Source: Nocardioides alpinus (GTDB lineage: Bacteria; Actinomycetota; Actinomycetes; Propionibacteriales; Nocardioidaceae). From it: a stretch of 64,000 bases of DNA. The position numbers and the translations under genes are program-made. The stretch is from positions 372,001 to 436,000 of the forward strand of contig NZ_FOKC01000001.1 in NCBI RefSeq assembly GCF_900112035.1, in the 5' to 3' direction. The notes under the pieces are model-generated. The model was not told the DNA's origin and made no database searches. It saw only the letters and a list, made by a program, of their open reading frames with translations. Each line of letters begins with the position of its first letter. The stretch's first letter is position 1. Below are positions 26,177 through 60,697 of this stretch, piece by piece.

Positions 26177-26190
26177 CACCGAATTGGGGA
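26177..26190 (-). promoter_or_regulatory. palindromic EPS motif, copy A (upstream of LuxR regulator)
   Basis: Minus strand TCCCCAATTCGGTG, an imperfect CCCCA/TGGGG palindrome, about 77 bp upstream of the regulator start. Confidence 0.5.
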
Positions 26191-26314
26191 CGGCCGCTCC
26201 CACGGGAGCCCGGCAGCTCCATGACCAAGGAACTTGACGCCCCCTTGACGCGTCCTGCTGTGCGCCTGACGCGGCCCTGACAGCGACCTCGACAAATCCG
26301 GACCAGACCGGGAT

Positions 26315-26330
26315 TGCCGCAAATTGGGTA
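26315..26330 (+). promoter_or_regulatory. palindromic EPS motif, copy B (upstream of kinase operon)
   Basis: Plus strand TGCCGCAAATTGGGTA, ending 91 bp before the kinase ATG. It matches the CCA-N3-TGGG core with one change in the left arm. Confidence 0.5.
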
Positions 26331-26420
26331 CGCCCGCACAATCGTTGGACACCCCCGGCTTTGAGGTTCCATCCTGCTTGCGGGACCTGATCGAATCATC
26401 CGTTCAGCGTGGGGGGAAGT

Positions 26421-27896
26421 ATGCGCCAGATCGCGCATGTCAGTAGGGAGTTGCGCCACAGCGTGGGGACGCTGGGGGTGGGGGGGCTGGGGTTCGCCGT
26501 GCTGGCGTGGACCAGCTGGGGCGGCGTACCGCCGGTGAGCAGCACCGATGCGGAGGCACGCACCCTGGTCGCCGCGGTGGTCAGCTGCGTCTTCGTGGCC
26601 GGTGCCGTGCTGGCCGCCGTCATGGGATGCCGCCGGCATGCCCGGGCACACGAGGGCTGGGTGGTGGGTGTCGGCGCGCTGATCGCGGCGCAGGCGCTGC
26701 TGGTCACGTTGCCCGCGATCGCCAACCCGCCACCGCGGGCCACCCTCGAGCTGGTCGCGCTCCTGGTCATCGGCCTCGTGGGCCTGGCATCCGTCATGGG
26801 TGCCCTCACCGCCCTGCCCGGTGCCCGCGCGGTGGCCGACGACGTCTTCGCCGTGGGACTCGGGATGGGCCTCCTGGCTGCCGGGCACCTGCTGCTGCTC
26901 ATCCCGCAGGGCGCCGCCGCCTCCGTGCCGATGCAGCTGCTGATCGGGCTGCTCGTGCTCACCCAGGTGGCGGCCGCCGCGATCGTCGTCTCCCAGCGGG
27001 TGCTGGTCGGGCTCATGACGCCGCTGGTCGTCCTCACCGCCGTTGTCCTCACCGCGCTCGGCGTGGTCGTCGGCCTCGGCCGCGACACCGCCTGGGACAC
27101 CCTGGTCTCGCTCGCGCTGGCCGCCGTCGGCGCCGCCTGGCTCGCCGCCGCCTGGCAGTGCCTCAACCGTGGCGTCGACCGCGCCGCTGCCCGGCGTGAC
27201 GCCGAGATCACGGAGGCCCAGCAGGCCACCATCCGCGACCAGCGCGAGCGGATGCACGAGCTGCGGAGCACGGTCGCCGGGCTCGTCAACGGCTCGGAGC
27301 TGCTCGACCACGCCGACATCTCCCTCGAGGCGCGGCTGCGCCTGTGGGAGTCGGTCCGGCGCGAGCTCGGCCGGATGCAGCGCCTGCTCTCGGACGAGAG
27401 CCGGCCCGCCACGCCCGTCGACCTCGACGAGGCGCTCGTGCTGATCCTCGAGCTGCAGCGGCTCAAGGGACGCCAGGTCGAGCTGCACACGACCGGTGAC
27501 ACCGTCCAGGCCCGCTACGACTCGCTGGCGGAGGTGGTCAACATCCTGATGGACAACGCCGCCACGCACGGCGGGACGGACAGCAGCGTCGTCGAGGTCG
27601 TCCGCCGCGACGAGGAGACGGTGGACATCACGGTGACGGACTTCGGTCGCGGCATCCCCGAGCAGGAGCGGCAGCGGATCTTCGAGTGGGGCGAGCACGG
27701 CGACGACTCCCCCGGTGAGGGCATCGGGCTCCACCTCGCGCAACGCCTCGTGGCCCAGGACGGTGGCTCCCTGAGGCTGGCCGAGGCCAAGGGCGTGGGA
27801 TCGTCCTTCGTCATCTCCCTGCCGGCGCCCCGCACCTCCACCGAGAACGATCTTGTGGATGAGGACGGCCATGTCTCCTGGCGCCGCTCGGGCTGA
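26421..27896 (+). CDS. membrane sensor histidine kinase
   Basis: About 491 residues. Residues 1-255 hold seven or eight hydrophobic helices with no extracellular sensor domain. A coiled segment with the H-box RDQRERMHELRSTVAGL follows (His in MHELR), then a HATPase domain: N-box NILMDNAATH, G1 DFGRGIPE and G2 GEGIGLHLAQRL. The start is the ATG at 26421, behind GGGGGGA; an in-frame GTG at 26409 is also possible. The 3' end overlaps the response-regulator gene by 26 bp, so they form a two-component system. Polytopic sensors like this often read membrane or wall state (inference). Confidence 0.88.
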   Translation: MRQIAHVSRELRHSVGTLGVGGLGFAVLAWTSWGGVPPVSSTDAEARTLVAAVVSCVFVAGAVLAAVMGCRRHARAHEGWVVGVGALIAAQALLVTLPAIANPPPRATLELVALLVIGLVGLASVMGALTALPGARAVADDVFAVGLGMGLLAAGHLLLLIPQGAAASVPMQLLIGLLVLTQVAAAAIVVSQRVLVGLMTPLVVLTAVVLTALGVVVGLGRDTAWDTLVSLALAAVGAAWLAAAWQCLNRGVDRAAARRDAEITEAQQATIRDQRERMHELRSTVAGLVNGSELLDHADISLEARLRLWESVRRELGRMQRLLSDESRPATPVDLDEALVLILELQRLKGRQVELHTTGDTVQARYDSLAEVVNILMDNAATHGGTDSSVVEVVRRDEETVDITVTDFGRGIPEQERQRIFEWGEHGDDSPGEGIGLHLAQRLVAQDGGSLRLAEAKGVGSSFVISLPAPRTSTENDLVDEDGHVSWRRSG

Positions 27897-28557
27897 TCAC
27901 CGCATCCTCATCGTCGACGACCACATGCTGTTCGCCGAGTCGCTGGAGCTCGCGCTCTCGGTGGAGGGCTACGACGTACGACGCATGGAGCTGCCGAACG
28001 AGGGTGGGTCGATGGCGACCCTGCGCTCCCTCGCGCTGCGCGCCAACCCGCGCACCGTCCTCCTCGACCTCGACCTGGGTCGGTTCGGCGACGGGATGAA
28101 CCTCATCGCCCCGCTCGCGCGCGCCCACATCAACGTCGTGGTCCTCACGGCGTCCGAGGACTTCGGACGCTGGGGCGGGTGCATGCGCCTCGGCGCCCGC
28201 AAGGTGCTGCCCAAGAGCGGGGCGCTCCAGCAGGCCCTGGCGACGGTGCGACGGCTGCACCTGGGCCTCCCGGTCACGAGTCGCGAGGAGCTGGAGCACC
28301 TGCTCGACCAGTGGGCGCAGCAGCGGCAGGCCAACGACGACCTCCGGCGTCGCCTCGACCTGCTCACCCCTCGGGAGCGGCAGGTGCTGGGTTCGCTGAT
28401 CGAAGGACGCACGGTGCGCACCATCTCCGAGGCGAGCGTCGTGTCCGAGGCCACGGTGCGCACCCAGGTCAAGTCGATCCTGGCCAAGCTCGAGGTGTCC
28501 TCGCAGCTGGCGGCGGTCGGGATGGCCAACCAGATCGGGTGGAAGAACGGCACATGA
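27871..28557 (+). CDS. NarL/LuxR-type response regulator
   Basis: A 228-residue regulator. The receiver domain is complete: acidic pair D16 D17 (LIVDDHMLFAES), phospho-acceptor D66 (VLLDLDLG), Thr in VVLTASED and K115 (VLPKSG). The HTH is at about 165-225 (LTPRERQVLGSLIEGRTVRT, then ATVRTQVKSILAKLEV). The ATG has an upstream GAGGACGG. It overlaps the kinase gene and precedes the asparagine-synthetase-like gene by 13 bp. It is a good candidate to bind the palindromic motif seen across the locus (inference). Confidence 0.9.
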   Translation: MSPGAARADHRILIVDDHMLFAESLELALSVEGYDVRRMELPNEGGSMATLRSLALRANPRTVLLDLDLGRFGDGMNLIAPLARAHINVVVLTASEDFGRWGGCMRLGARKVLPKSGALQQALATVRRLHLGLPVTSREELEHLLDQWAQQRQANDDLRRRLDLLTPRERQVLGSLIEGRTVRTISEASVVSEATVRTQVKSILAKLEVSSQLAAVGMANQIGWKNGT

Positions 28558-28570
28558 ACCCGGCACTCGG

Positions 28571-30391
28571 ATGAGCGGCATCGGCGGTGTGCGGGCGTTC
28601 TCACCGGGGGCGTTCACGACGTCGACGCTGCAGGGCATGGCCGAGGCGCTCCGCCACCGCGGTCCGGACGCGTCCTCGACGTGGGTCGGCCCCGACCTCG
28701 GCCTGACCCACACGCGGATGGAGGTCGTCGACGCCGCGCACGCGCACCAGCCGATGCACTCCGCCGACGGCCGGTGGGTCGTCGTGCTCGACGGCGAGGT
28801 CGTCAACCACGACAGCCTGCGGTCCCACCTGGACTACCCGTTCCGCACCAGCGGCGACACCGAGGTGGTGGTGGCCGGTCTCGCCGTGGAGGGCATCAGC
28901 TTCGTCGAGCGGCTGCGCGGGCCGTTCGCCCTCGTGGCGCACGACCTCCGCACCGACACCACGCACCTCGTGCGCGACCGGCTCGGCGTCCTCCCGCTCT
29001 ACTACCGGCACGTCCCGGGCGGCATCGCGTTCGGCTCCGAGATCAAGGCCCTCCTCGCCCTCGGTCCGCGTCCGGAGGTGGACGGGCGCAGCCTGGACGC
29101 CTACCTGACGTCCAGCGTGGTGCCGGCACCCGACACCCTCTTCGAGGGGGTCAAGAAGGTCAGGCCCGCCCATCGCGTCACGATCATGCCCCGCGGGCAC
29201 CTGGAGGAGCACCACTACTGGGCGCCCCCTGAGGGGGATCCCGAGGAGATCTGGACCGCCGGCGACGCGATCGAAGCGGTCGGCGACGGCATCCGCGACG
29301 CCGTCCGCGTGGCCGTCGCCACCGACGCAGCGGTGGGCGCCCACCTCTCCGGCGCGCTGGGGAGCAGCCTGCTGGTCGCGGAGATGCAGCAGCTGCGCGG
29401 TGGCGCTCCGCTGCACACGTTCTCCGTCGGCTTCACCGAGCAGCCCAGCGACGAACTCCGGTGGGCGCGCCACGTCTCCGAGCTGTTGGGCACCGAGCAC
29501 CACGAGGTCGCGCTGCAGGCCACCGACGTCGACGAGCTCTGGGGCCGGTTGTCCTGGCACCGGGACGCGCCGATCTCGGCGCCGGGCGACGTCGCGGTGT
29601 TCGGGCTCGCCCGCGCCGCGCGCGAGCACGTACGCGTCGTGGTCTCGGACGAGGGCACCGAGGAGCTGTTCGGCGTGCAGCCGCAGCACCGGTTGGCGCG
29701 ACGGGTGGCCGAACGGTCCGCCGCCCTCCCGACCCCGCTGCGCTCCCGGGTGACCGGGCCTGCCGAACGCCGCCTCGGCGCCGTCTTCACCACCGCCGAA
29801 CGACGCCGACTGCTCAGCGCTGAGCCGCCGCGGGAGCGGGTGCTGCCACCCGTCCTCGGCGCGGACCCCCTGGACCGCCAGTCCCGTCAGGACCTTCAGC
29901 ACTGGCTGCCCGACCACCTCCTCGAGCGGGCCGACCGGCTGTCGATGGCCGCGTCGGTCGCGTGGCGCCCGGCACTGCTGGACCACCACCTCGTCGAGCT
30001 GGCCTTCCGGCTGCCGGCCTCGCTCCGGTTCCGACCGGGGACGCCGCGGTGGGTGCTGAAGGAGGTCGCGCGGCCGATGCTGCCGGACCACGTCGTGGAC
30101 CACAGGCCCGCCCGGTCCGCGATGCCGCTCGACGCGTGGTTCCGGGAGGACCTGCGCGACTCCGCTCGGGATCGGCTCACCGGCAGGGAGTCCTGGGCAG
30201 GCCGTACGCTCGACCGCGCCTTCGTCCACGCCCTGGTCGAGGGCCACGAGCGGGGCGGCCACGAGGCCGGCAGGCTGTGGACGCTGCTGGCGCTGGAGAT
30301 GTGGCACGAGTGCTTCTTCGGCACACCACCGACCGCGCCGCGGCCCCGTCGAGCCACGACCTCGGCCGTCGCACCGTCCCGACGTCACTGA
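28571..30391 (+). CDS. asparagine-synthetase-like protein with changed catalytic motifs
   Basis: A 606-residue homologue of AsnB-type amidotransferases, of the kind seen in EPS loci. The overall two-domain layout is kept: RHRGPD at about 29-33, DGEVVNH at about 74-80, then the synthetase domain with FSVGF, LGTEHHEV and a C-terminal LERADRLSMAASVAWRPALLDHHLVELA. However, residue 2 is Ser where active class II glutaminases have Cys, the pyrophosphate loop SGGxDSS reads SGALGSS (260-266), and the SGDGGDELFGG block reads SDEGTEELFG (358-367). Glutamine hydrolysis and AMP-ligase chemistry are therefore both doubtful. It is third in the kinase operon. Confidence 0.85.
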   Translation: MSGIGGVRAFSPGAFTTSTLQGMAEALRHRGPDASSTWVGPDLGLTHTRMEVVDAAHAHQPMHSADGRWVVVLDGEVVNHDSLRSHLDYPFRTSGDTEVVVAGLAVEGISFVERLRGPFALVAHDLRTDTTHLVRDRLGVLPLYYRHVPGGIAFGSEIKALLALGPRPEVDGRSLDAYLTSSVVPAPDTLFEGVKKVRPAHRVTIMPRGHLEEHHYWAPPEGDPEEIWTAGDAIEAVGDGIRDAVRVAVATDAAVGAHLSGALGSSLLVAEMQQLRGGAPLHTFSVGFTEQPSDELRWARHVSELLGTEHHEVALQATDVDELWGRLSWHRDAPISAPGDVAVFGLARAAREHVRVVVSDEGTEELFGVQPQHRLARRVAERSAALPTPLRSRVTGPAERRLGAVFTTAERRRLLSAEPPRERVLPPVLGADPLDRQSRQDLQHWLPDHLLERADRLSMAASVAWRPALLDHHLVELAFRLPASLRFRPGTPRWVLKEVARPMLPDHVVDHRPARSAMPLDAWFREDLRDSARDRLTGRESWAGRTLDRAFVHALVEGHERGGHEAGRLWTLLALEMWHECFFGTPPTAPRPRRATTSAVAPSRRH

Positions 30392-30792
30392 GGCCCTGAG
30401 GGTGCGCAGGACCGAGGCGGCCCGACCGCGTCCGGACGTGCGGCTGCGGCGGCCGAGGTGGGGGAACCTCGACCGCCGCTACTGGTGCGCGTCGCCCGTG
30501 GTGGCGAGGCGTGGGGGTCCCGCGCCACCGATGCGGCCAGAGGCCTCTGCAGGGACAACTTTGAGTGCGGCGAACCAGTAACTTGCACCGATTCGAGAGT
30601 ACGACCCGGGAAGGACGGCGCCAATCCCACCGAGTGGGTATCTGCGGGCCGTCCGTCATGGCGCCGTCAGGGCGGCCCTGCAGGGCTTTCGCTGATTTGC
30701 GGCATGCCCCGCTCCCGCGCCGTTCCTAGGCTCTCGACCACGAGGGCAGCTGGGGTGCCCGTGGGGAAAGACAGCGGGGAGGGGTCCGTCAG
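30392..30792 (+). other. 401-bp leader/regulatory gap before the sugar transferase gene
   Basis: No gene is recognised here. Two stretches resemble the EPS palindrome: CCCACCGAGTGGGTAT at 30626-30641 (perfect CCCAC/GTGGG arms) and CGCTGATTTGCGGCATGCC at about 30690-30708, the latter 85 bp from the ATG. A short CGAGGT/ACCTCG inverted repeat at about 30459 could end the preceding transcript. Confidence 0.5.
30626..30641 (+). promoter_or_regulatory. palindromic EPS motif, copy C (upstream of sugar transferase)
   Basis: CCCACCGAGTGGGTAT: perfect 5-bp arms around CGA, followed by TAT as in the other copies. It lies 152 bp before the ATG. A second, weaker candidate lies at 30690-30708, and either could be the functional site. 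Confidence 0.4.
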
Positions 30793-34278: not shown

Positions 34279-34285
34279 GCCCGGC

Positions 34286-35302: not shown

Positions 35303-35309
35303 CTGTCGG

Positions 35310-37067: not shown

Positions 37068-37101
37068 GCACCCACCATAGGAGAGCGCGCCGGCTCGCAC
37101 G

Positions 37102-37114
37102 TCCCGAATTTGGA
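37102..37114 (-). promoter_or_regulatory. palindromic EPS motif, copy D
   Basis: Minus strand TCCAAATTCGGGA, 35 bp upstream of the second asparagine-synthetase-like gene. The left arm is weak and the right arm is good. Confidence 0.45.
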
Positions 37115-37145
37115 TGGTCTCCCTCCCGGACGCGTGACCCGCTGG

Positions 37146-38582: not shown

Positions 38583-38723
38583 GCAGAACTGCCTCTGACC
38601 GTCGGGGGTGTCGGTTGCGGGCTCACTATGGCCGCTCACGCGGATCACGGCAAAGGGGCATCCGCCCGGTTGCAGTCGCCGACCAGTGGTGCGCTCGCAT
38701 CGTCGCAGGTCAGCCGCGCGCGC

Positions 38724-38740
38724 TATCCCAAACTGGGGAA
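38724..38740 (-). promoter_or_regulatory. palindromic EPS motif, copy E
   Basis: Minus strand TTCCCCAGTTTGGGATA, 142 bp upstream of the beta-helix protein gene. One of the best copies (CCCCA-GTT-TGGGA, followed by TA). Confidence 0.6.
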
Positions 38741-38756
38741 ATGGGAGGCGTGCGGC

Positions 38757-39029
38757 TCATGAAGTCCCCGACAACTGCTTGGACGCCACGAAATCGGCCA
38801 GGTTCCCGACCGTCTCGAAGACCTCTCCGGTGACGTCGTCGTCGGCAACCTCGATATCGAACCTGTCCTCGAGGGCCGACGCAAGCTCCACCACGCCGAG
38901 GGAGTCGAGCTCGGGGAGCTCACCGAAGAGCGGGGTCGAGGCATCGATGGTCGAGGCCTGGTCCTCGATGCCCAAGGTGCTCACGAGCACCTCGATCACC
39001 GCGTTGACGTGGTCGGGGGTGGACTGCAT
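38757..39029 (-). CDS. acyl carrier protein
   Basis: A 90-residue helical carrier protein from the ATG at 39029. The phosphopantetheine site is Ser43 in PELDSLGVVELASALE; VADDDVTGEVFETVGNLADFV completes the fold. It is the last gene of the unit that starts at 42.8 kb with the GNAT, ligase and decarboxylase genes, so it probably carries the acyl or aminoacyl group activated by the ligase (inference). Confidence 0.93.
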   Translation of the reverse strand: MQSTPDHVNAVIEVLVSTLGIEDQASTIDASTPLFGELPELDSLGVVELASALEDRFDIEVADDDVTGEVFETVGNLADFVASKQLSGTS

Positions 39030-39081
39030 GGCTGCCTCCGGATCGTTGGGGCGTTCGGGTGGTTGGTCGGTGCTGCAACGG

Positions 39082-40317
39082 TCACACCAGCACCTCGGCA
39101 GGCGACGGGTGTCCGAGGAAGGCGGTCGGACTCGCCGTGAGGCCGTAGGCGCCGGCCTGATGCACGACCAGCAGGTCACCGACGTCGATGGTGGGGAGAC
39201 GGACCTTGTCGCCCAGCAGGTCGAGGGGCGTGCAGAGGCTTCCGACGATCGTGACCTCCGTGAGCTCACCCCCAGGCTCGACCGTCCGGGCAACGCCAGC
39301 GGAGATCGGATAGTTCCGGCGGATGACCTGTCCGAAGTTCCCCGAAGCCGCGAGCTGGTGGTGCATGCCCCCGTCGACGACGCAGTAGGTCACGCCCCGC
39401 GAGACCTTCCGGTCGACGATCCTGGTCACGTACACACCGGCCTCGCCCACGAGGTAGCGGCCGAGCTCGACGCCGATGCGTGCCTCACCCAGCACCGGCC
39501 GCAACCGCTCGGAGCAGAGCCGCTCGAGGTTCGCACCCACGGCCGAGAGGTCCAGCGGCTGGTCCTTCTCGAAGTACGGGATGCCGAAGCCGCCGCCGAG
39601 ATTGACGTACCGGACCGGCTCCGAGGCGTGCTTGGAGAGCTCGAGCACGAGGTTGACGGTGCGCTCGTGCGCCTCCGCCAGGATCGACGCGTGGAGGTTC
39701 TGGGACCCGGCGAAGACGTGGAAGCCCTCCAGGGCCACGCCGAGGTGGGCCATCTTGTCCATCAGCTGCGGGACGACCTCGGCGTCGACGCCGAACTGCT
39801 GCGGGCCACCACCCATCCGCATCCCGGACCCCTTGACCGCGAAGTCTGGGTTGACCCGGATCGCAGCACGGGGGCGGAGGCCCAGCTCGTGACCGGCGGC
39901 CCCGAGACGCCGCGCCTCGCCCTCCGACTCCACCTCGACCAGCACTCCGGAGGCGACTGCGCGATGCAGCTCGTCGTCCGTCTTGCCCGGACCGGCGAAG
40001 GTGATCCGCTCCGGGGCCGTCCCGGTGTCCAGGGCGACCGCCATCTCACCAGCCGAAGCCACGTCCAGCGTGTCCACCAGTGACGAGAGGTGCTGCACGA
40101 GCGCCGGCATCGGGTTCGCCTTCACTGCGTAGCCGAGGTCGAGGTCGTCGGGAAGGGCGGCGCGCACCTCCGCCACTCGTTGCGTGAGAAGGCGCCGATC
40201 GTAGGCGAAGAAGGGGGTCGAGCCGACGCGCGCCGCCAGCCGGTCGAGAGCCAGACCGCCGACGCGGATCCGGCCGTCGTCGCCGATGAAGGCCTGTGCG
40301 TGCTCGGCGGCGATCAC
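39082..40317 (-). CDS. PLP-dependent decarboxylase, exosortase-A-locus type (LysA/ornithine-decarboxylase fold III)
   Basis: A 411-residue fold-type III enzyme. PLP-lysine K66 is in LGYAVKANPMPALVQHL; the Gly-rich phosphate loop is NLGGGFGIPYFE; GSLCTPLDLLGD has the second-subunit Cys of the diaminopimelate/ornithine decarboxylase family. It closely follows the pattern of the decarboxylase found in proteobacterial exosortase-A (EpsH) loci. The substrate is unknown. The GTG start overlaps the ligase stop by 4 bp. Confidence 0.9.
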   Translation of the reverse strand: MIAAEHAQAFIGDDGRIRVGGLALDRLAARVGSTPFFAYDRRLLTQRVAEVRAALPDDLDLGYAVKANPMPALVQHLSSLVDTLDVASAGEMAVALDTGTAPERITFAGPGKTDDELHRAVASGVLVEVESEGEARRLGAAGHELGLRPRAAIRVNPDFAVKGSGMRMGGGPQQFGVDAEVVPQLMDKMAHLGVALEGFHVFAGSQNLHASILAEAHERTVNLVLELSKHASEPVRYVNLGGGFGIPYFEKDQPLDLSAVGANLERLCSERLRPVLGEARIGVELGRYLVGEAGVYVTRIVDRKVSRGVTYCVVDGGMHHQLAASGNFGQVIRRNYPISAGVARTVEPGGELTEVTIVGSLCTPLDLLGDKVRLPTIDVGDLLVVHQAGAYGLTASPTAFLGHPSPAEVLV

Positions 40318-41918
40318 GATCCGGCCCCCCTCGTGCGGGCGGCGATCTCCCGCGCCACTTCCGGGGCCAGCGCCACTCGATCGAACTTGCCATTGGGCGA
40401 GCGCGGCAGCTCTTCGCGCACGAGCACCTCCGAGGGGACCATGTAGAGGGGGAGCTCACGTCGCAGCAGCCTGGAGAGCCCGGTCCCGTCCACCGTCCCC
40501 CCGGGCGTGGACGCGACGACGAGCACGATCCGCTGGCCGAGCTTCTCGTCGGGAACGCCGAGCGCCACCGCGTCGCGGACGAGACCGGTCTCGTATGCGG
40601 CCTCCTCGACCTCGGTCGGGCTCACCCGGTAGCCGGAGGTCTTGATCATCTCGTCGGCGCGGCCGACGAAGCTCAGGAAACCCAGTTCGTCGGCGACGAC
40701 GGTGTCGCCGGACCACACGGCTCGCTCCTCGGCCTGCCACGCCGCGCGTCCCGGCAGAGGGCGGAACCTCTGTGCGGTGCGCTCGGGATCGTTCCAGTAG
40801 CCGAGCGCCACCAGCGGTCCGCGGTGGACCAGCTCACCTTCTTCGCCAGGCTCGCACGCGGAGCCGTCGGGCCGTAGCACGAGGATCTCGGCGTCCGGGA
40901 TGGCCTTGCCGATCGAGTCGCCGTGCCGGTCGACCTCGTCGGGGTCGAGGTAGGTCGAGCGGAAGGCCTCGGTGAGGCCGTACATCAGGTAGGGACGGGC
41001 GGACGGGAACAGGTCACGCAGCCGCTTCAGCGTTGCAGCAGGCATGCGTCCACCGGTGTTGGCGAAGTAGCGCATCGAGCTGCGCGCCTCCGCTGGCCAC
41101 TGCTGCTCGACCAGCTGCACCCACAGCGGCGGCACGCACGTGAGGCCGGTGACACCGTGCCGCGCGCAGAGCTCCACCAGGTCGCGCGCCACGAGGTAGT
41201 TCGCGAGGACGACGTGGGCGCCGACGGCCAGGCCCGTGGTGACCTGGCTCAGCCCCGCGTCGAAGCTCAGGGGCAGCGCCGCCAGGATGACGTCGTCGGC
41301 GTCGTTGCCGAGGTAGCTGCTCACGCTCTCCGCACCGATGAGCATGTTGCGGTGGCTCAGCACCACGCCCTTGGGACTGCCCGTGCTGCCGGAGGTGTAG
41401 AGGATCGCGGCCATGTCGGAGTCGGGCGGGCGCGGGCTCACCGCCTCGCGCGACGGTGCGGCAAGGAGCCGACCGAGCTCGTGGACGGACACGTCGGGAG
41501 GCTCGGACCCCGTGCCCGCCACGGGACCGTCGACCAGGACCACGTCGCGCAGGTCCGTGTCCGCCAGCGCCGTGGCAAGCGTGGCCCACCGGCGAGCGGT
41601 CGTCACCAGGATCCGGGAGCCGCTGTCCCGTACGACGTGGCCGACCTGCCGCGGCTTGAAGACGGGGTTGACCGGCACGAAGACACCACCGGCCAGCGAG
41701 GAGGCGAGGAGGCTGGTGACGGTCTCGATCTTCTTGTCCAAGAACACCGCGACCCGGTCGTCGCGCACGAGGCCGAGGCCCTCGAACCCGGACGCCAGCC
41801 GACCGACGGCGTCCCACGCCTCGGCGTAGCTCACCGTGTCGGCACCCGACGTCAGCGCGGGGCTGTCCGGGTGGGTGCCCGCACGCTCCTCGAGGAGGTG
41901 GTGGATCCGTGTCCTCAT
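40314..41918 (-). CDS. AMP-forming acyl-CoA/acyl-ACP ligase, exosortase-A-locus type
   Basis: A 534-residue adenylating enzyme. Core motifs are ILYTSGSTGSPKGVVLSHRN (A3), YLMYGLTEAFRSTYLDPDEV (A5), GELVHRGPLVALGYWNDP (A6/A7), VWSGDTVVADELGFLSFVGR (A7/A8), DEMIKTSGYRVSP (A8) and the A10 Lys in PRSPNGKFDR. The YGLTEAFRSTYLDPDEVDRHGDS and GKAIPDAEILVLRPDGS segments look like those of the exosortase-A-associated ligases. It most likely activates a small acid and loads the ACP two genes downstream. It overlaps the decarboxylase start. Confidence 0.92.
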   Translation of the reverse strand: MRTRIHHLLEERAGTHPDSPALTSGADTVSYAEAWDAVGRLASGFEGLGLVRDDRVAVFLDKKIETVTSLLASSLAGGVFVPVNPVFKPRQVGHVVRDSGSRILVTTARRWATLATALADTDLRDVVLVDGPVAGTGSEPPDVSVHELGRLLAAPSREAVSPRPPDSDMAAILYTSGSTGSPKGVVLSHRNMLIGAESVSSYLGNDADDVILAALPLSFDAGLSQVTTGLAVGAHVVLANYLVARDLVELCARHGVTGLTCVPPLWVQLVEQQWPAEARSSMRYFANTGGRMPAATLKRLRDLFPSARPYLMYGLTEAFRSTYLDPDEVDRHGDSIGKAIPDAEILVLRPDGSACEPGEEGELVHRGPLVALGYWNDPERTAQRFRPLPGRAAWQAEERAVWSGDTVVADELGFLSFVGRADEMIKTSGYRVSPTEVEEAAYETGLVRDAVALGVPDEKLGQRIVLVVASTPGGTVDGTGLSRLLRRELPLYMVPSEVLVREELPRSPNGKFDRVALAPEVAREIAARTRGAGS

Positions 41919-41943
41919 CTGCTGCCTTTCCCTTCGCTCCGGC

Positions 41944-42804: not shown

Positions 42805-42852
42805 GGGCACAGCATCTGTTCGTTGTCGCCGCGGCTTGGCCGGCGGCGACGG

Positions 42853-42873
42853 CTATACCTCATTTTTGGCAAT
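42853..42873. promoter_or_regulatory. palindromic EPS motif, copy F (divergent)
   Basis: On the minus strand it reads ATTGCCAAAAATGAGGTATA, about 50 bp upstream of the GNAT gene. Read on the plus strand, ACCTCATTTTTGGCAAT also fits and lies about 50 bp before the deacetylase ATG. One site could serve both genes. Confidence 0.45.
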
Positions 42874-42922
42874 GGGACCCCGGGTTGCCGGAGCGACCTT
42901 CAGACCGTCCTACGGTCTTGGC

Positions 42923-47381: not shown

Positions 47382-47463
47382 CCTTGGCACTCCCCTGGCG
47401 TGCTCGAGCTGCGACCGTCCCACGTTCGCCGAGCCGTGCCCGCGACCCGATCGCCACCGGGAC

Positions 47464-47483
47464 TTATCCCCAAAATTTGGCGG
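47464..47483 (-). promoter_or_regulatory. palindromic EPS motif, copy G
   Basis: Minus strand CCGCCAAATTTTGGGGATAA, 83 bp upstream of the GT2 gene; near-perfect right arm followed by ATA. It lies between the stop of the giant DUF4082 gene and the GT2 unit. Confidence 0.6.
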
Positions 47484-47501
47484 CCGGGTCGACGGCAGCG
47501 G

Positions 47502-52256: not shown

Positions 52257-52351
52257 CGCCGTCCACCCATCCTGCTCGCACTCGTCCAGGGGCATTCCGC
52301 CCCTGGGTGATCGTGGCCGGGACGCGCCCCCCGCATCGGGCACGCCGGCCG

Positions 52352-52370
52352 TTTTCCCCACATTGGGGGT
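52352..52370 (-). promoter_or_regulatory. palindromic EPS motif, copy H
   Basis: Minus strand ACCCCCAATGTGGGGAAAA, 96 bp upstream of the giant DUF4082 gene and touching the stop of the preceding glycosyltransferase gene. The arms are near perfect. Confidence 0.65.
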
Positions 52371-53353
52371 CAGACGCCGACCGGCTGGCCCGGCACTCGC
52401 TGGCGGGGGATGCGCACGCTGCTGATCCGCAGCTGAGGCGGGTCGGTCAGCTTGGTGACGGTCCTGCTCGCGGCGGCGACCAGGTCGCGCCCCTTGAGGC
52501 TGTCGGCGTCGCGCGAGATGCAGAGGTCGCGCAGCGCCAGGTCGAGCGCGATGGTCATCTGGTGGTCGTCGACGTGCTCGCCATGGCGGGCCCGGCGCGG
52601 CACGAGGATCGGGCACTTGCCGTTTTCCAGCGCCATCAGGGCGATGCCCGTCCCGGCATGGGCGACCACGACGTCGGCGTCGCGGATCGAGGTCCGCATC
52701 TCCTCCGAGGGCACCCGCGAGCGCCCGTCGATGCCCAGGCCGGTGGTGTCCGTACCGCCGGTCTGCCACAGCACCTTCGTGCTCGGCGGCACCAGCGGCA
52801 CCAGCCGGTCGAGCAGCCGGCGGAAGCCGTAGTCCTCCTGCGTGCCCAGGCTCACGACCATCGACCGGATCGGTCGGGGCTCGATCGGGCTGGTGTCGTA
52901 GAGGTCCCACGGCGAGGCCAGGTAGGTCCAGGCGCCGGTGCACAGGTCACTGGACTGGCTGAAGGTCGAGATGCCCGGCATCGCCGCCATCGCGCGACCC
53001 GACAGGGACGGCTCGTCGCGGCGCGTGGCGCTCTCGATGTAGACCGTCTCGATGCCGCGCATCCTCGCCTGCGGGAGCACGGCGAGCGCGAGCGCGGCGC
53101 CGGTGCTGACCACGAGGCGTACGTCGTGGAGCCGGAACAGCTGGCGGGCGGCGAGGGCGTTGCGCGCCACGGCACGCAGGTCGCGGGGCGGGCACGGCGC
53201 CATCCAGTGCACCTGCTCACCGGCCAGCATCGACTCGGTCTGGGGCGTCCGGACGGTCACCCACACCACGTCCGCGCCGACGCCCAGGCGCGGGCGGAGC
53301 GTGTGGAGCTGCATCAGGTGTCCGCCGTCGTTGGCGACCAGGAGCGTGGTCAC
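52370..53353 (-). CDS. Alg13/14 / GT28-type glycosyltransferase
   Basis: A 327-residue GT-B protein. The N-terminal half resembles the acceptor/membrane-associated Alg14-like domain (LLVANDGGHLMQLHTL and YIESATRRDEPSLSGRAM), the C-terminal half the Alg13/GT28 donor domain (MVVSLGTQEDYGFRRLLDRL, ADVVVAHAGTGIALMALENGKCPILVPRRARHGEHVDDHQ). EPS enzymes of the EpsF/CpsF type have this fold with either or both halves. The GTG start overlaps the DegT gene stop by 4 bp. It is the last gene of the eight-gene operon. Confidence 0.87.
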   Translation of the reverse strand: MTTLLVANDGGHLMQLHTLRPRLGVGADVVWVTVRTPQTESMLAGEQVHWMAPCPPRDLRAVARNALAARQLFRLHDVRLVVSTGAALALAVLPQARMRGIETVYIESATRRDEPSLSGRAMAAMPGISTFSQSSDLCTGAWTYLASPWDLYDTSPIEPRPIRSMVVSLGTQEDYGFRRLLDRLVPLVPPSTKVLWQTGGTDTTGLGIDGRSRVPSEEMRTSIRDADVVVAHAGTGIALMALENGKCPILVPRRARHGEHVDDHQMTIALDLALRDLCISRDADSLKGRDLVAAASRTVTKLTDPPQLRISSVRIPRQRVPGQPVGV

Positions 53354-55115: not shown

Positions 55116-56263
55116 GGTCGCCACGCCGTGCTGAGGGCCTCGCACACGCGTGCCTGCTCCGGGTCGGTCATCTGGTGGAACAGCGGCAGGATCAGCGTCC
55201 GGTCGTTGAGTCGCTCGGTGACCGGGAGCGGCGCGTGCGACCGGTGGTCGTGCGCCGGCTGGCGGTGGGCCGCCATGATGCCGCGCCGTGCGGAGATGCC
55301 TGCCTCGGCGAGATGGACCATCAGCTCCTCGCGGTCCATCGGGTGGTCCTCGAGGACCTCGACCCAGCAGGACTGGAAGTTGGTGGTGCCCCAGGCCGGA
55401 TCGGCCACCATCCGCAGACCGGGCAGGTCGGCCACCACGGCGGCGTACGTCGCGGCGCGCTCGCGGCGGCGGGCGACCATGGCGGGCAGCCGACCCAGCT
55501 GGACGCTGCCCACGGCCGCCTGCAGGTCGGTCATCCGGAAGTTGAAGCCGACCTCGGCGTAGGACTCCGGCGGGGCGAGCACGCTCGCGTGCCTATCCGC
55601 CGCGGAGGTGGACATGGCGTGCTCGCGCAGCCGGCGGGCGCGATCGGCCCAGTCGCTGCGCGACGTGGTGAGCATGCCGCCCTCACCCGTGGTGAGGAGC
55701 TTGCGCGGGTGGAACGACCAGGCCGCGATCTCCGCACCGGCGCCCACCGGACGCCCGTGCGCGGTCGAGCCCGCCGCGCACGCGGCGTCCTCGATGACGG
55801 TGATGCCGAGCGGGTCGCACCAGGCACGGATGGCGCGCAGGTCGAGCGGCACGCCGCCCTGGTCCACGGCGATCACCGCACGCGTCCGCGCGGTGACCAC
55901 CGTGGCGATCGTGGCAGGGGTGAGATTGCCGGTCGTCGCGTCCACGTCCGCGAACACCGGTGTCGCCCCGACGTAGGTCGGTGCGTTGGCCGTGGCGACG
56001 AACGAGAAGGACGGGACGACGACCTCGTCGCCGGGCCCGACACCGGCGACCACGAGCGCCAGGTGGAGAGCAGTGGTGCAGTTGCTGACGGCCACCGCGT
56101 GAGCAGCCTCCTGCGAGGCGGCGAAGGCGGCCTCGAACGCCGCCACGCGTGGGCCCTGGGCGACCCAGCCGGACCGCAGCACCGCGGCGACCGCCGCGAC
56201 CTCCTCCTCGCCGAGCCACGGCTGCATCACGTTGATGCGGGTCAGCTGCTGGTCCAGGCTCAT
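55112..56263 (-). CDS. DegT/DnrJ/EryC1/StrS-type sugar aminotransferase (2)
   Basis: A 383-residue PLP aminotransferase, paralogous to the previous one. MQPWLGEEEVAAVAAVLRSGWVAQGP starts the fold; the PLP lysine is K188 in SFHPRKLLTTGEGGML, and VVVPSFSFVATANA plus VIEDAACAAGSTAHGRPVG are standard. It is nearer PglE-type enzymes, which pair with PglD-type acetyltransferases in diacetylated-sugar synthesis. It overlaps its neighbours by 4 bp on both sides. Confidence 0.93.
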   Translation of the reverse strand: MSLDQQLTRINVMQPWLGEEEVAAVAAVLRSGWVAQGPRVAAFEAAFAASQEAAHAVAVSNCTTALHLALVVAGVGPGDEVVVPSFSFVATANAPTYVGATPVFADVDATTGNLTPATIATVVTARTRAVIAVDQGGVPLDLRAIRAWCDPLGITVIEDAACAAGSTAHGRPVGAGAEIAAWSFHPRKLLTTGEGGMLTTSRSDWADRARRLREHAMSTSAADRHASVLAPPESYAEVGFNFRMTDLQAAVGSVQLGRLPAMVARRRERAATYAAVVADLPGLRMVADPAWGTTNFQSCWVEVLEDHPMDREELMVHLAEAGISARRGIMAAHRQPAHDHRSHAPLPVTERLNDRTLILPLFHQMTDPEQARVCEALSTAWRP

Positions 56264-57261
56264 CGGGCCACCGCCGGCACGGGCCGTCCGGCAGCGATCT
56301 CCTCGCGCTGCGGACGCCACCACTCCACCAGGGCACGCAGCCCGTCCTCGAGGCCGGTGTCGGCGACGAAGCCCAGGTCGCGCTCGGCGGCGCAGGTGTC
56401 GGCGAGACGGCGTACGACACCGTTGACGCCGCGCTCGGGTCCGTGCTCGACGGGCAGGTCCGAGCCCATCACCCGCAGCAACGTCTCGGCGAGCCCGAGC
56501 AGGCTGGTCTCCTCGCCGCGAGCGACGTTGTAGACGCCCTCCACGACCGGTGACGCGGCTGCCAGCACGTTGGCGCGGGCGATGTCGGTGGTGAAGACGA
56601 AGTCCATCGTCTGCCGCCCGTCCCCGAAGATCAGCGGGGGCTGGCCGTCATCGATGCGCTCCATCCACCGCACCAGCACCTCGGTGTAGAGGCCGTGGAC
56701 GTCCATCCGCGGGCCGTAGACGTTGAAGTAGCGCAGTGCGACGTAGTCGAGGCCGTGCATGGCGCGGAAGCTGCGCAGCATGCCCTCGTTGAAGGTCTTG
56801 GCCGCGCCGTAGAAGGTGTCGTTGGCGTAGGGGTGCTGGACCTCGGGCGTCGGGAACTGCTCGGCGAGCCCGTAGACCGAGGCCGACGAGGCGGCCACCA
56901 GCTTGTCGACGCCGGCGGAGGTGGCTGCCTCGACGACGTTGAAGGTGCCGTCGACGAGCACCTCGAGGGCGAGCCGCGGCTCCTCCGCGCACTGGGTGAT
57001 CCGGATGGCGGCCTGGTGGAAGACGAGGTCGCAGCCGCGGGTCAGGTCGTGGACGAGGTCCCGGTCGCGGATGTCGCCGCGGACCAGCTCGACACCACCG
57101 CGGACGAGGGCGTCGGCGAGGTTGAACTCACGGCCCCGCACCATGTTGTCGAGGACCCGGACCTGCGAGACCCCGGCGTCGAGGAGCTGGTCGACGAGGG
57201 TCGAGCCGATCGTGCCGGCACCTCCGGTGACGAGCACGGTGGCCCCGGTGAGCGCGGTCAT
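56260..57261 (-). CDS. NAD-dependent nucleotide-sugar epimerase/dehydratase
   Basis: A 333-residue extended SDR enzyme. The Rossmann motif is VLVTGGAGTIGSTLVDQLL, catalytic Tyr and Lys are in FYGAAKTFNEGML, and ALRYFNVYGPRMDVHGLYTEVLVRWMERI marks a nucleotide-sugar epimerase. GDGRQTMDFVFTTDIARAN is the usual substrate loop. It is probably a UDP-hexose epimerase/dehydratase feeding the operon; the exact reaction is not clear. It overlaps both neighbouring genes by 4 bp. Confidence 0.9.
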   Translation of the reverse strand: MTALTGATVLVTGGAGTIGSTLVDQLLDAGVSQVRVLDNMVRGREFNLADALVRGGVELVRGDIRDRDLVHDLTRGCDLVFHQAAIRITQCAEEPRLALEVLVDGTFNVVEAATSAGVDKLVAASSASVYGLAEQFPTPEVQHPYANDTFYGAAKTFNEGMLRSFRAMHGLDYVALRYFNVYGPRMDVHGLYTEVLVRWMERIDDGQPPLIFGDGRQTMDFVFTTDIARANVLAAASPVVEGVYNVARGEETSLLGLAETLLRVMGSDLPVEHGPERGVNGVVRRLADTCAAERDLGFVADTGLEDGLRALVEWWRPQREEIAAGRPVPAVAR

Positions 57262-58331
57262 CGGCTGACCTCCAGCACGCGCTCGGTCGCCTGGCGGGGC
57301 ACCGGCGGCGGCCCGACCGGCACCGCCTGCTCGGCGAGCCGGCGGGAGGCCTGCTCCAGCACCTCGAGGACCCGGAGCCCCGAGCGGCCGTCGGTCAGCG
57401 CCTGCCGCCCCTCGCGGATCGCAGCCGCGAACTCGCCCACCATCGACCCGAGCGCCTCGCGCTCGGGCAGGGCGGGAGACCACGTGTCGCCGAGGCGGTA
57501 GGAGACGGTCGAGGCCGCACGGTCCGAGCCGGCCACAGACGTACGGGCCAGGTCGACGCCGCGGTCGAAGACGCTGAGCCGCTGCTGCGGGTTGAGGTCG
57601 TCCCACACGAGGGTGCGACGGGAGCCGCCGATCACCATCTGGCGGATCTTGGTCGGGCTCAGCCAGTTGACGTGCACGTGCGCCAGCCCGTCGTCCGGCA
57701 GCGGGAGCGTCAGGTGGCCGACACAGGCGCGGCCGGCACCGATGGGGTCGGCGCCGGTCGCGCCGATGCCGGCAGTGGGGAGACCACCCGGCAGCACGAA
57801 GTCGAGGATCGCGAGGTCGTGCGGCGCGAGGTCCCACAGGACGTCGATGTCGGGCTGGATGAGGCCGAGGTTGATGCGCACCGAGTCGACGAAGTGCACC
57901 TGGCCCAGCTCGCCGCTGACCACGAGGTCCCGCATCTTCTGGACCGCAGGGGTGTAGCAGTAGGTGTGGTCCGTCATCAGGACCAGGCCCTCCCGCTCGG
58001 CCAGGTCGACCATGGCCCGCCCGCCGGCGACGCTGTCGGCCAGAGGCTTCTCGACGAGCACGTGCTTGCCGGCGCGGAGTGCGTCGAGGGCGAGGCCACG
58101 GTGCGTGCGCGCCGGCGTGGCGATCGCGACCGCGTCGATGTCGGGGTCGTCCAGCACCCGCTCCACGCTGTCGGTGACGGCGACGTGCGGGCCGGCGACC
58201 TTCCGCGCCCGGTCGAGGTCGAGGTCGCACACCGTGCGCAGGTCCCAGCCCGGCGAGCCGCCGAAGTTGCGGACCAGGTTGGGCCCCCAGTAGCCGGCGC
58301 CGATCACGGCGATGCCCAGGTTGCGGTTCAT
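57258..58331 (-). CDS. Gfo/Idh/MocA oxidoreductase (WbpB/WlbA-like)
   Basis: A 357-residue NAD(P)-dependent oxidoreductase. The dinucleotide site is GIAVIGAGYWGPNLVRNF, and GKHVLVEKPLADSVAGG has the EKP motif. DHTYCYTPAVQKMRDLV and DLAPHDLAILDFVL (with the His of the family HxxD-type catalytic pair) match WlbA/WbpB, which oxidise a UDP-sugar C3 before amination. With the DegT enzyme and the acetyltransferase next to it, this fits a 3-amino-3-deoxy sugar pathway. A 6-dehydrogenase (WbpA-type) is not in this window. Confidence 0.92.
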   Translation of the reverse strand: MNRNLGIAVIGAGYWGPNLVRNFGGSPGWDLRTVCDLDLDRARKVAGPHVAVTDSVERVLDDPDIDAVAIATPARTHRGLALDALRAGKHVLVEKPLADSVAGGRAMVDLAEREGLVLMTDHTYCYTPAVQKMRDLVVSGELGQVHFVDSVRINLGLIQPDIDVLWDLAPHDLAILDFVLPGGLPTAGIGATGADPIGAGRACVGHLTLPLPDDGLAHVHVNWLSPTKIRQMVIGGSRRTLVWDDLNPQQRLSVFDRGVDLARTSVAGSDRAASTVSYRLGDTWSPALPEREALGSMVGEFAAAIREGRQALTDGRSGLRVLEVLEQASRRLAEQAVPVGPPPVPRQATERVLEVSR

Positions 58332-58957
58332 CGAGCTTCCTCCAGTCGTCCTTCGTGCTCCAGGTAGACCTCGCCCGAGGCCGGGCAGATCCATCGGTCG
58401 TGGGTGTCGGACACGAGGGGTACGCCGCTGCGCCCGACCCATCCGACGCGGCGTGCGGGCGTCCCGACGACGAGGGCGTGGTCGGGCACGTCCCGGGTCA
58501 CGACGGCCCCGGCCCCGACGCTGGCCCAGCGGCCGATCGTCACCGGCGCCACGCAGACGGCGCGCGCACCGATCGATGCGCCCTCGCGGACGGTCACGCC
58601 GACCGCCTCCCAGTCCTCGGCGCCCTTGCGGCGGCCGTCGGGCGTCACCGCGCGGGGGTAGGTGTCGTTGGTCAGCACCACGGCCGGTCCGATGAAGACG
58701 CCGTCCTCCAGGACCGCCGGCTCGTAGAGGAGGGCCTGGTTCTGGACCTTGCAGCGCTCCCCGATCCGGGTGCCGGGACCGACGTAGACGTTGCGGCCGA
58801 TGATCGTGTCGGCGCCGATCTCGGCGCCGGCGCGGACTGCGGACTGGTCCCAGACCTGCGCGCCGGGACCGACCAGGGCGCCGTCCTCGACGGAGGCGGT
58901 GGGAGCGATCACGGTGTCGGCGCCGCGGTGGGCCCTCGGACCGGAGAGTGTCGTCAT
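58328..58957 (-). CDS. hexapeptide acyltransferase (WbpD-like)
   Basis: A 209-residue left-handed beta-helix acetyltransferase. Hexapeptide repeats run from ADTVIAPTASVEDGALVGPGAQVWDQSAV to TIIGRNVYVGPGTRIGERCKVQNQALL; the C-terminal domain has the VLTNDTYPRAVTPDGRRKGAEDWEAV loop, with the WbpD-type NDxxPR motif. It should N-acetylate the 3-amino group made by the WbpE-type aminotransferase (inference). The ATG overlaps the GT2 stop by 4 bp. Confidence 0.92.
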   Translation of the reverse strand: MTTLSGPRAHRGADTVIAPTASVEDGALVGPGAQVWDQSAVRAGAEIGADTIIGRNVYVGPGTRIGERCKVQNQALLYEPAVLEDGVFIGPAVVLTNDTYPRAVTPDGRRKGAEDWEAVGVTVREGASIGARAVCVAPVTIGRWASVGAGAVVTRDVPDHALVVGTPARRVGWVGRSGVPLVSDTHDRWICPASGEVYLEHEGRLEEAR

Positions 58958-59796
58958 GAGCGGGAGCTTTCGTCTCGTTGCCAGGTGGTGAAGTCGCCGG
59001 CCCGCAGGGCCTGTCGGGCACCGAGCTGCGCGGCGACGTGGACGCCCACGAACACCGGGAGCCGGAGGGCGACGCCCGGGCGGCCGACGGCCAGGCCCAG
59101 GAGGGTGCGCGCGCTGGTGCGCGAGGTCGGTCGGCGCACGCCGAGCTGCGCGGCCTGGGCGTTGCCGGTGGCGATCCGGACCCGACGGCGTACGAGGTCG
59201 CGCACCGTGCGCGGCGGGTGCACGACGGCGACGGCGCCGGGGACGACGCGACGCTCGTCCCCGGTGAACGCGTCGGACATGCCGAGGTCGTCGCTCATCA
59301 TCCGGGGCAGCGCGGTGACCCGGGCCTGGGCCTGCTCGGAGAGCACGACGACCCCCCGGCCGAAGAGTCCAGACTCCACCTGCGGCAACGACTCCCAGAC
59401 GTCGTAGTACCAGCGCACCCAGCGCGAGCAACCGGCCCGCGGCACGTCGCGGCGGGGAGCGGTCGCCAGCACGTGGCCGGCGGTGATGGGCTCGAGCAGC
59501 TGCAGCACGTCGCGGCCGTTGAGCTCGATGTCGGCGTCGAGGTGGACCCGCGGGAACACGTCCGTCACGGTGTTGCCCACGCGCACGGCCTCGGCCTTCG
59601 AGGGCTGCTGGATCTCGATGACGCGCGCCAGCGGGTCGGCACTGCGCGCGACCTCGGCGGTCCGGTCGGTGCACCCGTTGCAGACGACGACCACGTCGAG
59701 GTCGCCGCCGCGAGTGCCCTCCCGGAGAGCGCGGAGGTTGCGGCCGATGCTCGCTGCCTCGTTGTGCGCAGGAATGATGACGCTCGCGACGGCCAT
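58954..59796 (-). CDS. GT2-family glycosyltransferase
   Basis: A 280-residue GT-A enzyme, first gene of the eight-gene operon. SVIIPAHNEAASIGRNLRAL opens the domain, and VVVVCNGCTDRTAEV and VHLDADIELNGRDVLQLL (DAD motif) follow, with MSDDLGMSDAFTG as the acidic catalytic region. The C terminus has hydrophobic segments that could associate with the membrane. The ATG at 59796 has an upstream GGGGAG; an in-frame start further upstream (59838) is less likely. It lies about 89 bp downstream of palindrome copy I. Confidence 0.88.
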   Translation of the reverse strand: MAVASVIIPAHNEAASIGRNLRALREGTRGGDLDVVVVCNGCTDRTAEVARSADPLARVIEIQQPSKAEAVRVGNTVTDVFPRVHLDADIELNGRDVLQLLEPITAGHVLATAPRRDVPRAGCSRWVRWYYDVWESLPQVESGLFGRGVVVLSEQAQARVTALPRMMSDDLGMSDAFTGDERRVVPGAVAVVHPPRTVRDLVRRRVRIATGNAQAAQLGVRRPTSRTSARTLLGLAVGRPGVALRLPVFVGVHVAAQLGARQALRAGDFTTWQRDESSRS

Positions 59797-59884
59797 CCCC
59801 AACTCCCCCAAGTCGTGTGCCCGTCGAACGACCGGCACGCTCAGATCTTGGGGAGCCGGGAGCTCGACTCGGCCGCCGACGGGA

Positions 59885-59906
59885 CCCTTTCGCCAATATT
59901 GGTGAG
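59885..59906 (-). promoter_or_regulatory. palindromic EPS motif, copy I
   Basis: Contains a perfect 10-bp palindrome CCAATATTGG (59893-59902). On the minus strand ACCAATATTGGCGAAAGGG faces the eight-gene operon, 89 bp from its start. Confidence 0.6.
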
Positions 59907-59929
59907 CGGTCCCGGCTCGTCGCGCGGCG

Positions 59930-60622
59930 TCATCCCGGCTGCGCCATCGAGAAGGTGATCTCGCTCGAGCGCAGGTTGCGCAGGGACAGCACCATGAGGT
60001 CCAGCTCGACCACCGACCACCCGTCGTCCACGGCCGTCCCGGCTGCGGTGGTGCGGAGCGCCTGCAGCAGGTTGAGCGGCTGCTTGCGCAGCTCGGCGTG
60101 CAGCGTCCCCTCCAGGACCCGGCCGAGGAAGTCGTGCTGGGCCGCAGGCCCCGACCCGTAGGCGTACGCCGGGTCGACGCCGTTGTCGTCCGCGAGCCGC
60201 ACGAACGTGTCCCAGTCGATGGCGATCACGTGGTCGACGCGCCGGCCGGACCACTCCTCGACCAGGCCGACGCCCGTGCTGGGCGACGACGTGGCGACCA
60301 CGGGGCGGATGCCGCTGCTGGCGGGCAGCGACTCCACCTCCGCCGACAGGCCGTCAGGGGGGACCTCGATCAGCATCACGGCCTCGACGGACTGCTCTCC
60401 GGACAGCCACGGCACGTCGGGACCCGCACCTCCGGTCCGGGTGCCGACCACCAGGACGGTCTTCCCGTCCGCGGGCGGAGGTCTGTCGGTCAGGCCCGCG
60501 AAGGCGCCCTCGATGCGGTCCAGCCGGCTCGCCATGGCGACGTTGAGCCCCAGCCCCACCATCGCGACGGCCAGGCCGAGGGCGAGCACCACCCTGAGCA
60601 GCCGGCGTACGACCCTCGCCAT
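59930..60622 (-). CDS. degenerate LytR-CpsA-Psr-like membrane protein
   Basis: A 230-residue protein with an N-terminal transmembrane helix (RLLRVVLALGLAVAMVGLGLNVA). The extracellular domain follows the LCP pattern in outline: VLVVGTRTGGAG (where LCPs have a GsDxR-type motif), AVMLIEVPPDGLSAEVESLPASSGI and the GRRVDHVIAIDWDTFVRLADDNG segment. The arginines and Asp that bind the lipid pyrophosphate are mostly missing, so phosphotransferase activity that attaches polymers to peptidoglycan is doubtful. The start has a strong GGGGGAGG site. Confidence 0.7.
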   Translation of the reverse strand: MARVVRRLLRVVLALGLAVAMVGLGLNVAMASRLDRIEGAFAGLTDRPPPADGKTVLVVGTRTGGAGPDVPWLSGEQSVEAVMLIEVPPDGLSAEVESLPASSGIRPVVATSSPSTGVGLVEEWSGRRVDHVIAIDWDTFVRLADDNGVDPAYAYGSGPAAQHDFLGRVLEGTLHAELRKQPLNLLQALRTTAAGTAVDDGWSVVELDLMVLSLRNLRSSEITFSMAQPG

Positions 60623-60677
60623 CCGCCTCCCCCTCGTGCCGATCCCCCGACGCTAGGGCGCGAGGCCGGGTGATCTC

Positions 60678-60697
60678 ATGCCCCAAAGAGGGGACAC
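60678..60697 (-). promoter_or_regulatory. palindromic EPS motif, copy J
   Basis: Minus strand TGTCCCCTCTTTGGGGCATG, with good CCCC/GGGG arms, 56 bp upstream of the LCP-like gene. It is the last copy, between the locus and pth. Confidence 0.6.

Follow-up and report, generated by a model that had tools for sequence, protein, structure and literature searches.

How are the transcription units of an exopolysaccharide (EPS) locus in Nocardioides alpinus controlled, and which protein controls them? The stretch of DNA that we analysed (the window: 64 kb of contig NZ_FOKC01000001.1, positions 372,001 to 436,000, with a G+C content of 71.5%, from a 4.6-Mb assembly; window positions are used below) carries such a locus at 25.4 to 60.6 kb. 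Its regulatory genes encode a LuxR-type protein (here LuxR2), a histidine kinase and a response regulator. It further holds two asparagine-synthase-like genes, genes for a polyprenyl glycosylphosphotransferase, a carrier protein, a flippase, glycosyltransferases and two DUF4082 proteins, and an eight-gene sugar operon. A first-pass annotation had noted ten copies of a palindrome upstream of these genes and operons. Sequence comparison makes it probable that this palindrome, TMCCCMAWWTKGGGKA, is the site of the NarL-type response regulator (27,871-28,557), which, once phosphorylated by the adjacent kinase, would activate the EPS operons and secreted surface proteins encoded elsewhere.

The operator consensus was a 16-bp palindrome with an A/T core and outer T/A. 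It emerged as aTCCCCcAtaTgGGGGAt when a palindrome-constrained expectation-maximization (EM) analysis was run on intergenic DNA from the window together with that of 18 Nocardioides loci and a single Microlunatus locus; 4 of 25 random seeds converged on it with a log-likelihood of 348 to 351, compared with 172 for the next solution. The pattern originally described, CCCA-N3-5-TGGGG, does not define the element: alone it was not enriched in the genome and was useless for scanning it (57 and 40 matches by strand versus 80 and 80 for the reversed control), and the "same orientation" ascribed to the copies has little meaning, since the site is palindromic. Two other approaches were also rejected. 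EM over all 80 loci plus the window returned a blurred motif, and a count of perfect 5+5 palindromes in the 80 loci gave a weak signal only (TCCCC-N6-GGGGA, 6 in 6 loci with 0.19 expected), because the operator is imperfect and concentrated in one genus.

The ten copies themselves proved real. A palindrome matrix trained on relatives only, without the window (156 intergenic segments from 18 Nocardioides loci), recovered nine of them at ≥10 bits (sites A to C and E to J in Table 1), the tenth, D at 37.10 kb, scoring 6.3. At this threshold nine matches fell in the 1,742 bp of intergenic DNA of the locus, two lay inside genes, and the remaining uncovered DNA of the window (4,270 bp) had one. Column-permuted palindrome matrices gave a mean of 0.32 matches and a maximum of 7, so that nine were reached in 0 of 300 trials, and Markov-1 shuffled controls gave a mean of 0.11 and a maximum of 3 (500 shuffles). 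The earlier, first matrix at ≥9 bits found at least two intergenic matches in each of 19 Nocardioides loci (84 in total) and 33 in 61 other loci, 18 of the 19 being loci on which it had been trained. The out-of-sample tests were thus those of the relatives-only matrix on the window and of the 20 further genomes described below, while the earlier matrix scans reused their own training loci. The sole window match of ≥12 bits outside the locus, at 11,024, lies in a 1.7-kb stretch (10,537-12,285) in which no gene was called.

The distribution of the motif across the genus pointed to the protein that probably reads it. We defined a near-consensus site by ≤1 mismatch, used the reversed pattern as control and called the regulator present at E ≤ 1e-40. 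By these definitions, 106 of 147 Nocardioides genomes were regulator-positive and 41 regulator-negative. Near-consensus sites occurred in 93 of the former (259 sites, control 7) and in 4 of the latter (6 sites, control 5), an association with a Fisher P of 3e-19 when genomes are treated as independent. A wider set of 44 genomes (our own and 43 reached through decarboxylase loci) had 51 sites in 19 regulator-positive members (control 1), and the remaining 25 genomes had 11 (control 4), with Nakamurella (G086, 42% match) counted as regulator-negative and L058 and L039 left out. This split follows genus, which is why the comparison was repeated within Nocardioides. Outside the genus, Lacisediminihabitans profunda (L045, G097) had near-consensus matches at three places, with none for the reversed control and no regulator match at E ≤ 1e-25.

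A link between the motif and the decarboxylase-type EPS cluster was ruled out, since the decarboxylase was found at E ≤ 1e-100 in 29 of the 147 genomes, all of them regulator-positive, whereas the motif was present in 97. Of the 77 genomes that have the regulator but not the decarboxylase, 65 still had a site (176 sites, control 6). Since sites cluster near the regulator also without this type of EPS cluster, the pairing of regulator and site is probably maintained over differing sets of polysaccharide genes. Overall, the response regulator is the likely binder of the sites.

The regulator's only Pfam matches were GerE and Response_reg. Its best sequence matches in the PDB were VraR (E 6e-9), DesR and NarL (E 6e-7 to 9e-7); the similarity is low, and these proteins have other operators and functions. 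Thirty regulator-like loci, some of which overlap or repeat, were compared. The recognition helix SE(A/T)TVRTQVK(S/A)IL was present in all 27 homologues of ≥51% identity, and a site of ≥10 bits was found in 23 of the corresponding 27 short loci, compared with none of the three loci of ≤44% identity. For the kinase, whose gene overlaps that of the regulator at its 3' end, no HisKA model was matched. Used as a probe in 61 genomes of the family, it was set aside, as outside its own genome it returned just low-identity kinases (29 to 43% among the matches listed).

The position of the sites relative to a promoter-like hexamer was informative about their function. Read in gene orientation, 27 of 106 non-redundant site-gene pairs had a TANNNT hexamer starting 46 to 49 bp from the centre of the palindrome, against an average of 1.1 pairs, and never more than 5, in other windows of distance. 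When weaker sites were added and hexamers were scored with a matrix (156 pairs), 55 of 66 strong matches fell at 30-31, 46-49 or 66-67 bp; the matrix was trained on the 46-49 bp matches, which makes that peak partly circular, but not the peaks at 30-31 and 66-67 bp or the test in 20 further genomes. There, of the sites in 400 kb around the regulator, 78 were intergenic and 4 genic; over 87 pairs, 25 of the 31 hexamer matches lay at 30-31 or 46-50 bp. The 20 regions were picked from the 77 regulator-positive, decarboxylase-negative genomes with motif counts in view (at least two each), which favoured site density; hexamer distances had not been looked at before selection. In the window, four promoters had a strong hexamer at an expected distance: those of D, J, the deacetylase side of F, and C2, an additional copy. 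Several relatives share the C2-type arrangement of site and TAGGCT, and in relatives a comparable C/C2 pair is 37 bp apart. Sites G, H and I have weaker candidates at 47 bp, with CA or GA in place of TA, which were left uncounted, and the TTG profile had no peak indicating a -35 element. If, as we infer, the main sigma factor uses this hexamer as its -10 element, the centre of the palindrome would be placed near -42 or -59. Sites of class II and class I activators are centred near -41 and -60, respectively, from the transcription start. The geometry would thus be that of such activators, which likely points to activation and not to repression.

The sites were also conserved upstream of orthologues. 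Gene starts were those of our own gene caller, some corrected by eye (37,067; large DUF4082 gene, 52,256 or 52,241), and counts refer to distinct relatives with the start in view, three pairs of loci from the same genomes being merged. A site of ≥14 bits preceded the kinase gene (site B) in 3 of 3 relatives, and sites of ≥10 bits preceded the orthologues downstream of C in 6 of 7 and of J in 4 of 4. With the same ≥10-bit threshold for the remaining sites, F had an upstream match in 7 of 8 relatives at the GNAT-like orthologue and in 7 of 9 at the deacetylase. The orthologue at E had a site in 2 of 2 relatives, 147 to 148 bp from the start compared with 149 in the window, that at I in 2 of 2 (58 to 59 bp versus 59), and that at G in the one relative available, at the same 93 bp. 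Site D reached ≥10 bits in 1 of 3 relatives (L047, 14.2 bits), with 6.0 bits in L009 and none in L011; the best matches in L047 and L009 had the same 42-bp spacing to the start. The start-codon distance was preserved at D, E, G and I and in many cases at F; at B, C and J it was not. Site H fell outside this comparison, as no relative had the start of the large DUF4082 gene in view. The weak single copies A, C2 and D could be of chance origin.

In the N. alpinus genome, the consensus with ≤3 mismatches gave 55 matches (54 distinct), of which 8 distinct ones lay within the 34.5 kb of the locus (0.75% of the genome; 0.4 expected; binomial P ~8e-9). The clustering that the first-pass annotation had proposed as a check was thus borne out, and its proposal of one dedicated regulon with a single operator is well supported. 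With ≤2 mismatches there were 11 matches, 4 in the locus and 7 outside it, 5 of the latter intergenic and 2 inside genes; the stretches examined were mostly picked around pattern matches and provide no unbiased background. Each of the five outside intergenic sites adjoins a gene for an apparently exported protein (signal peptides judged by eye). Two of these proteins are laminin-G-like, one has at least 1,940 amino acids and no Pfam match, one is a DUF4397 protein with a membrane anchor, and one, of 343 amino acids, ends in LPDTGA. The candidate targets outside the locus are at 55.9 kb of contig C7, 143.1 kb of C13, 93.1 kb of C16, 10.4 kb of C19 and 57.1 kb of C21. The regulon therefore likely reaches beyond the EPS locus. 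The gene for the LPDTGA protein (contig C19, about 10.5-11.6 kb; L155:5503-6534, + strand) has a motif copy 112 bp upstream and is followed by an overlapping open reading frame with a sortase-like start, as judged by eye.

Both LuxR-type proteins had been named as candidate regulators. The genus co-occurrence supports the response regulator more than LuxR2, and we consider it unlikely, though still worth weighing, that LuxR2 is the true binder, either by itself or paired with the response regulator in a heterodimer like that of Streptomyces BldM/WhiI. The LuxR2 gene adjoins two sites (A and B), and the protein has no recognised receiver domain, and by eye shows SP in place of the DD pair of receivers, which might fit an unphosphorylated partner. 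In addition, 15 of 20 loci of other genomes (L196-L215) have a more distant LuxR-type gene near the regulator, with the related helix VSxxTVRSQVK. However, close LuxR2 orthologues were found in just 27 of the 147 genomes, all regulator-positive, and sites still occur in 68 of the 79 regulator-positive genomes that lack such an orthologue (201 sites, control 6), although distant orthologues are possible in these 79, as the search covered close ones only. Moreover, sites are present in all 5 of the 20 loci that have no second LuxR-type gene. LuxR2 may have a partner role.

Other readings of the element fared worse. That it is a repressor operator appears improbable: palindromes upstream of operons are typical of repressors too, but here the palindrome does not overlap the -10-like hexamer and sits 30-31 or 46-50 bp upstream of it. 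Still less probable is that the site belongs to the promoter of a dedicated sigma factor or to an RNA element. It does partly cover the -35 position in the 30-31 bp class, yet two distance classes about 17 bp apart misfit a single -35 element, and, lying ahead of the predicted start, the site would be absent from the transcript of that promoter (no Rfam search was made). That the set arose by chance in a G+C-rich genome is hardly credible; neither the loose pattern nor the pattern with ≤3 mismatches exceeded its reversed control genome-wide, but the out-of-window matrix with its permuted and shuffled controls contradicts this reading for the site set, as do the conservation upstream of orthologues and the co-occurrence with the regulator.

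Several observations weigh against the response regulator as activator of these genes through the palindrome, the frequent second LuxR-type gene mentioned above being one of them. Thirteen of the 106 regulator-positive genomes lack a near-consensus site and 4 of the 41 negative ones have one, and four loci with regulators 85 to 88% identical (L119, L121, L122 and L123) had no site of ≥10 bits within the short stretch examined. No strong hexamer was found at an expected distance for A, B, C, E, G, H, I or the GNAT-like side of F, nor for any of the five outside sites in the N. alpinus genome, and most site-gene pairs in relatives also lack one; the window promoters concerned may have weaker or other -10 sequences. 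The 55 own-genome matches with ≤3 mismatches did not exceed the reversed control (59), which implies that weak matches outside the locus are mostly due to chance. All three own-genome matches with ≤1 mismatch lie outside the locus, the window sites being far from the consensus. Finally, three of the five outside sites also face a divergently oriented gene with an unrelated type of product (thiolase, ABC-type ATPase or N-acetyltransferase), so that the outside target is not certain.

Table 1. Predicted operator sites, -10-like hexamers and regulatory genes in the window
Feature	Position	Strand	Score (bits)	Context
Site A	26174..26191	.	10.8	gap between LuxR2 (-) and kinase (+); no strong -10 hexamer at 30-31 or 46-49
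Site B	26314..26331	.	15.3	upstream of kinase-regulator operon
Site C	30624..30641	.	16.1	upstream of sugar transferase operon
Site C2	30688..30705	.	7.0	extra copy absent from the original list, 64 bp downstream of C
Predicted -10 hexamer TAGGCT for C2	30727..30732	+		starts 30 bp from C2 centre
Site D	37101..37118	.	6.3	upstream of second asparagine-synthase-like gene, 42 bp from start codon
Predicted -10 hexamer TATGGT for D	37074..37079	-		30 bp from D centre
Site E	38723..38740	.	15.0	upstream of small DUF4082 gene, 149 bp from start
Site F	42855..42872	.	18.9	between GNAT-like operon (-) and polysaccharide deacetylase (+)
Predicted -10 hexamer TACGGT for F, deacetylase side	42911..42916	+		offset 47
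Site G	47466..47483	.	13.2	upstream of glycosyltransferase-flippase operon, 93 bp from start
Site H	52354..52371	.	12.3	upstream of large DUF4082 gene
Site I	59889..59906	.	15.6	upstream of eight-gene sugar operon, 59 bp from start
Site J	60678..60695	.	13.6	upstream of 230-aa membrane or secreted protein
Predicted -10 hexamer TAGCGT for J	60650..60655	-		offset 31
LuxR2, LuxR-type protein	25369..26100	-		GerE found, Response_reg not recognised
Histidine kinase, predicted partner of regulator	26421..27896	+		HATPase_c above cut-off
NarL-type response regulator, predicted binder	27871..28557	+		Response_reg 41.3 bits (cut-off 30.2), GerE 46.6 bits (cut-off 23.5)

The EPS locus matched models for the exosortase-A-associated ligase (TIGR03098, 715.7 bits with a cut-off of 592.35) and decarboxylase (TIGR03099, 562.7 bits with a cut-off of 478.45), while the amidotransferase model TIGR03108 stayed under its cut-off (335.9 of 816.9 bits). 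No match to exosortase PF09721 was found at E ≤ 0.001 in the N. alpinus genome (97.7% complete). The exosortase-A-associated trio of carrier protein, decarboxylase and ligase is encoded at 38,757-41,918 in a genome where no exosortase was found, in contrast to the XrtA/PEP-CTERM EPS system. The nearest loci in a decarboxylase search were those of Nocardioides pini, N. hwasunensis and N. pinisoli (75 to 85% identical). Decarboxylases 62 to 66% identical appeared in records titled Rhizobiales, Rhizobium or Stenotrophomonas (L055, L056, L061 and L082), in which contamination or mislabelling is possible.

PrsK/PrsR controls PEP-CTERM genes in Proteobacteria, where motif and regulator share a phylogenetic profile, according to Haft and others 2006 (PMC1569441). 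The two systems are alike in having a two-component pair, an EPS locus with an exosortase-A-type ligase and decarboxylase, scattered genes for exported proteins and one shared cis-site matching the profile of the regulator; however, PrsR is a sigma-54 enhancer-binding protein whose site contains a sigma-54 motif (PMC1569441), whereas the Nocardioides regulator is of the NarL type and is associated with a hexamer of the -10 kind. The Pfam matches of the Nocardioides regulator include no sigma-54-interacting (NtrC-type) domain, and the PrsK model TIGR02916 gave 48.7 bits against a cut-off of 300. In Streptomyces, BldM binds the 16-bp palindrome TCACcCgnncGgGTGA, and the BldM and BldM-WhiI regulons involve, as here, actinobacterial LuxR/NarL-type regulators with a 16-bp palindromic operator and a second such protein nearby (PMC4125116). 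That operator differs from TMCCCMAWWTKGGGKA, and BldM and WhiI are described as orphan, atypical developmental regulators (PMC4125116), while the Nocardioides regulator has an adjacent kinase gene and predicted EPS targets. We have filed the predicted EPS regulon under the broad class of NarL-type two-component regulons, as an analogue and not a member of the PrsK/PrsR system. No description of such a regulon in Nocardioides was found in the open-access literature, subscription journals being mostly outside the search.

In the mechanism that we favour, the neighbouring kinase would phosphorylate the response regulator, which would bind the palindrome as a homodimer and, so bound, activate the EPS operons together with genes for secreted surface proteins elsewhere in the genome; sites A and B would provide autoregulation. 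A broader and much more tentative idea is that of a portable coat switch, in which the kinase-regulator pair and its palindrome would be kept across Nocardioides while polysaccharide genes are exchanged and scattered secreted proteins are recruited. Coat and surface proteins would then be made together without an exosortase, and the receiver-less LuxR2 would tune the switch by pairing with the regulator, as BldM and WhiI do. For a large soil genus, the analysis provides a predicted operator, regulator and promoter positions for the control of EPS. Candidate members of the regulon in other Nocardioides genomes can be sought with the matrix, and the prediction can be tested with a single protein and a single promoter.

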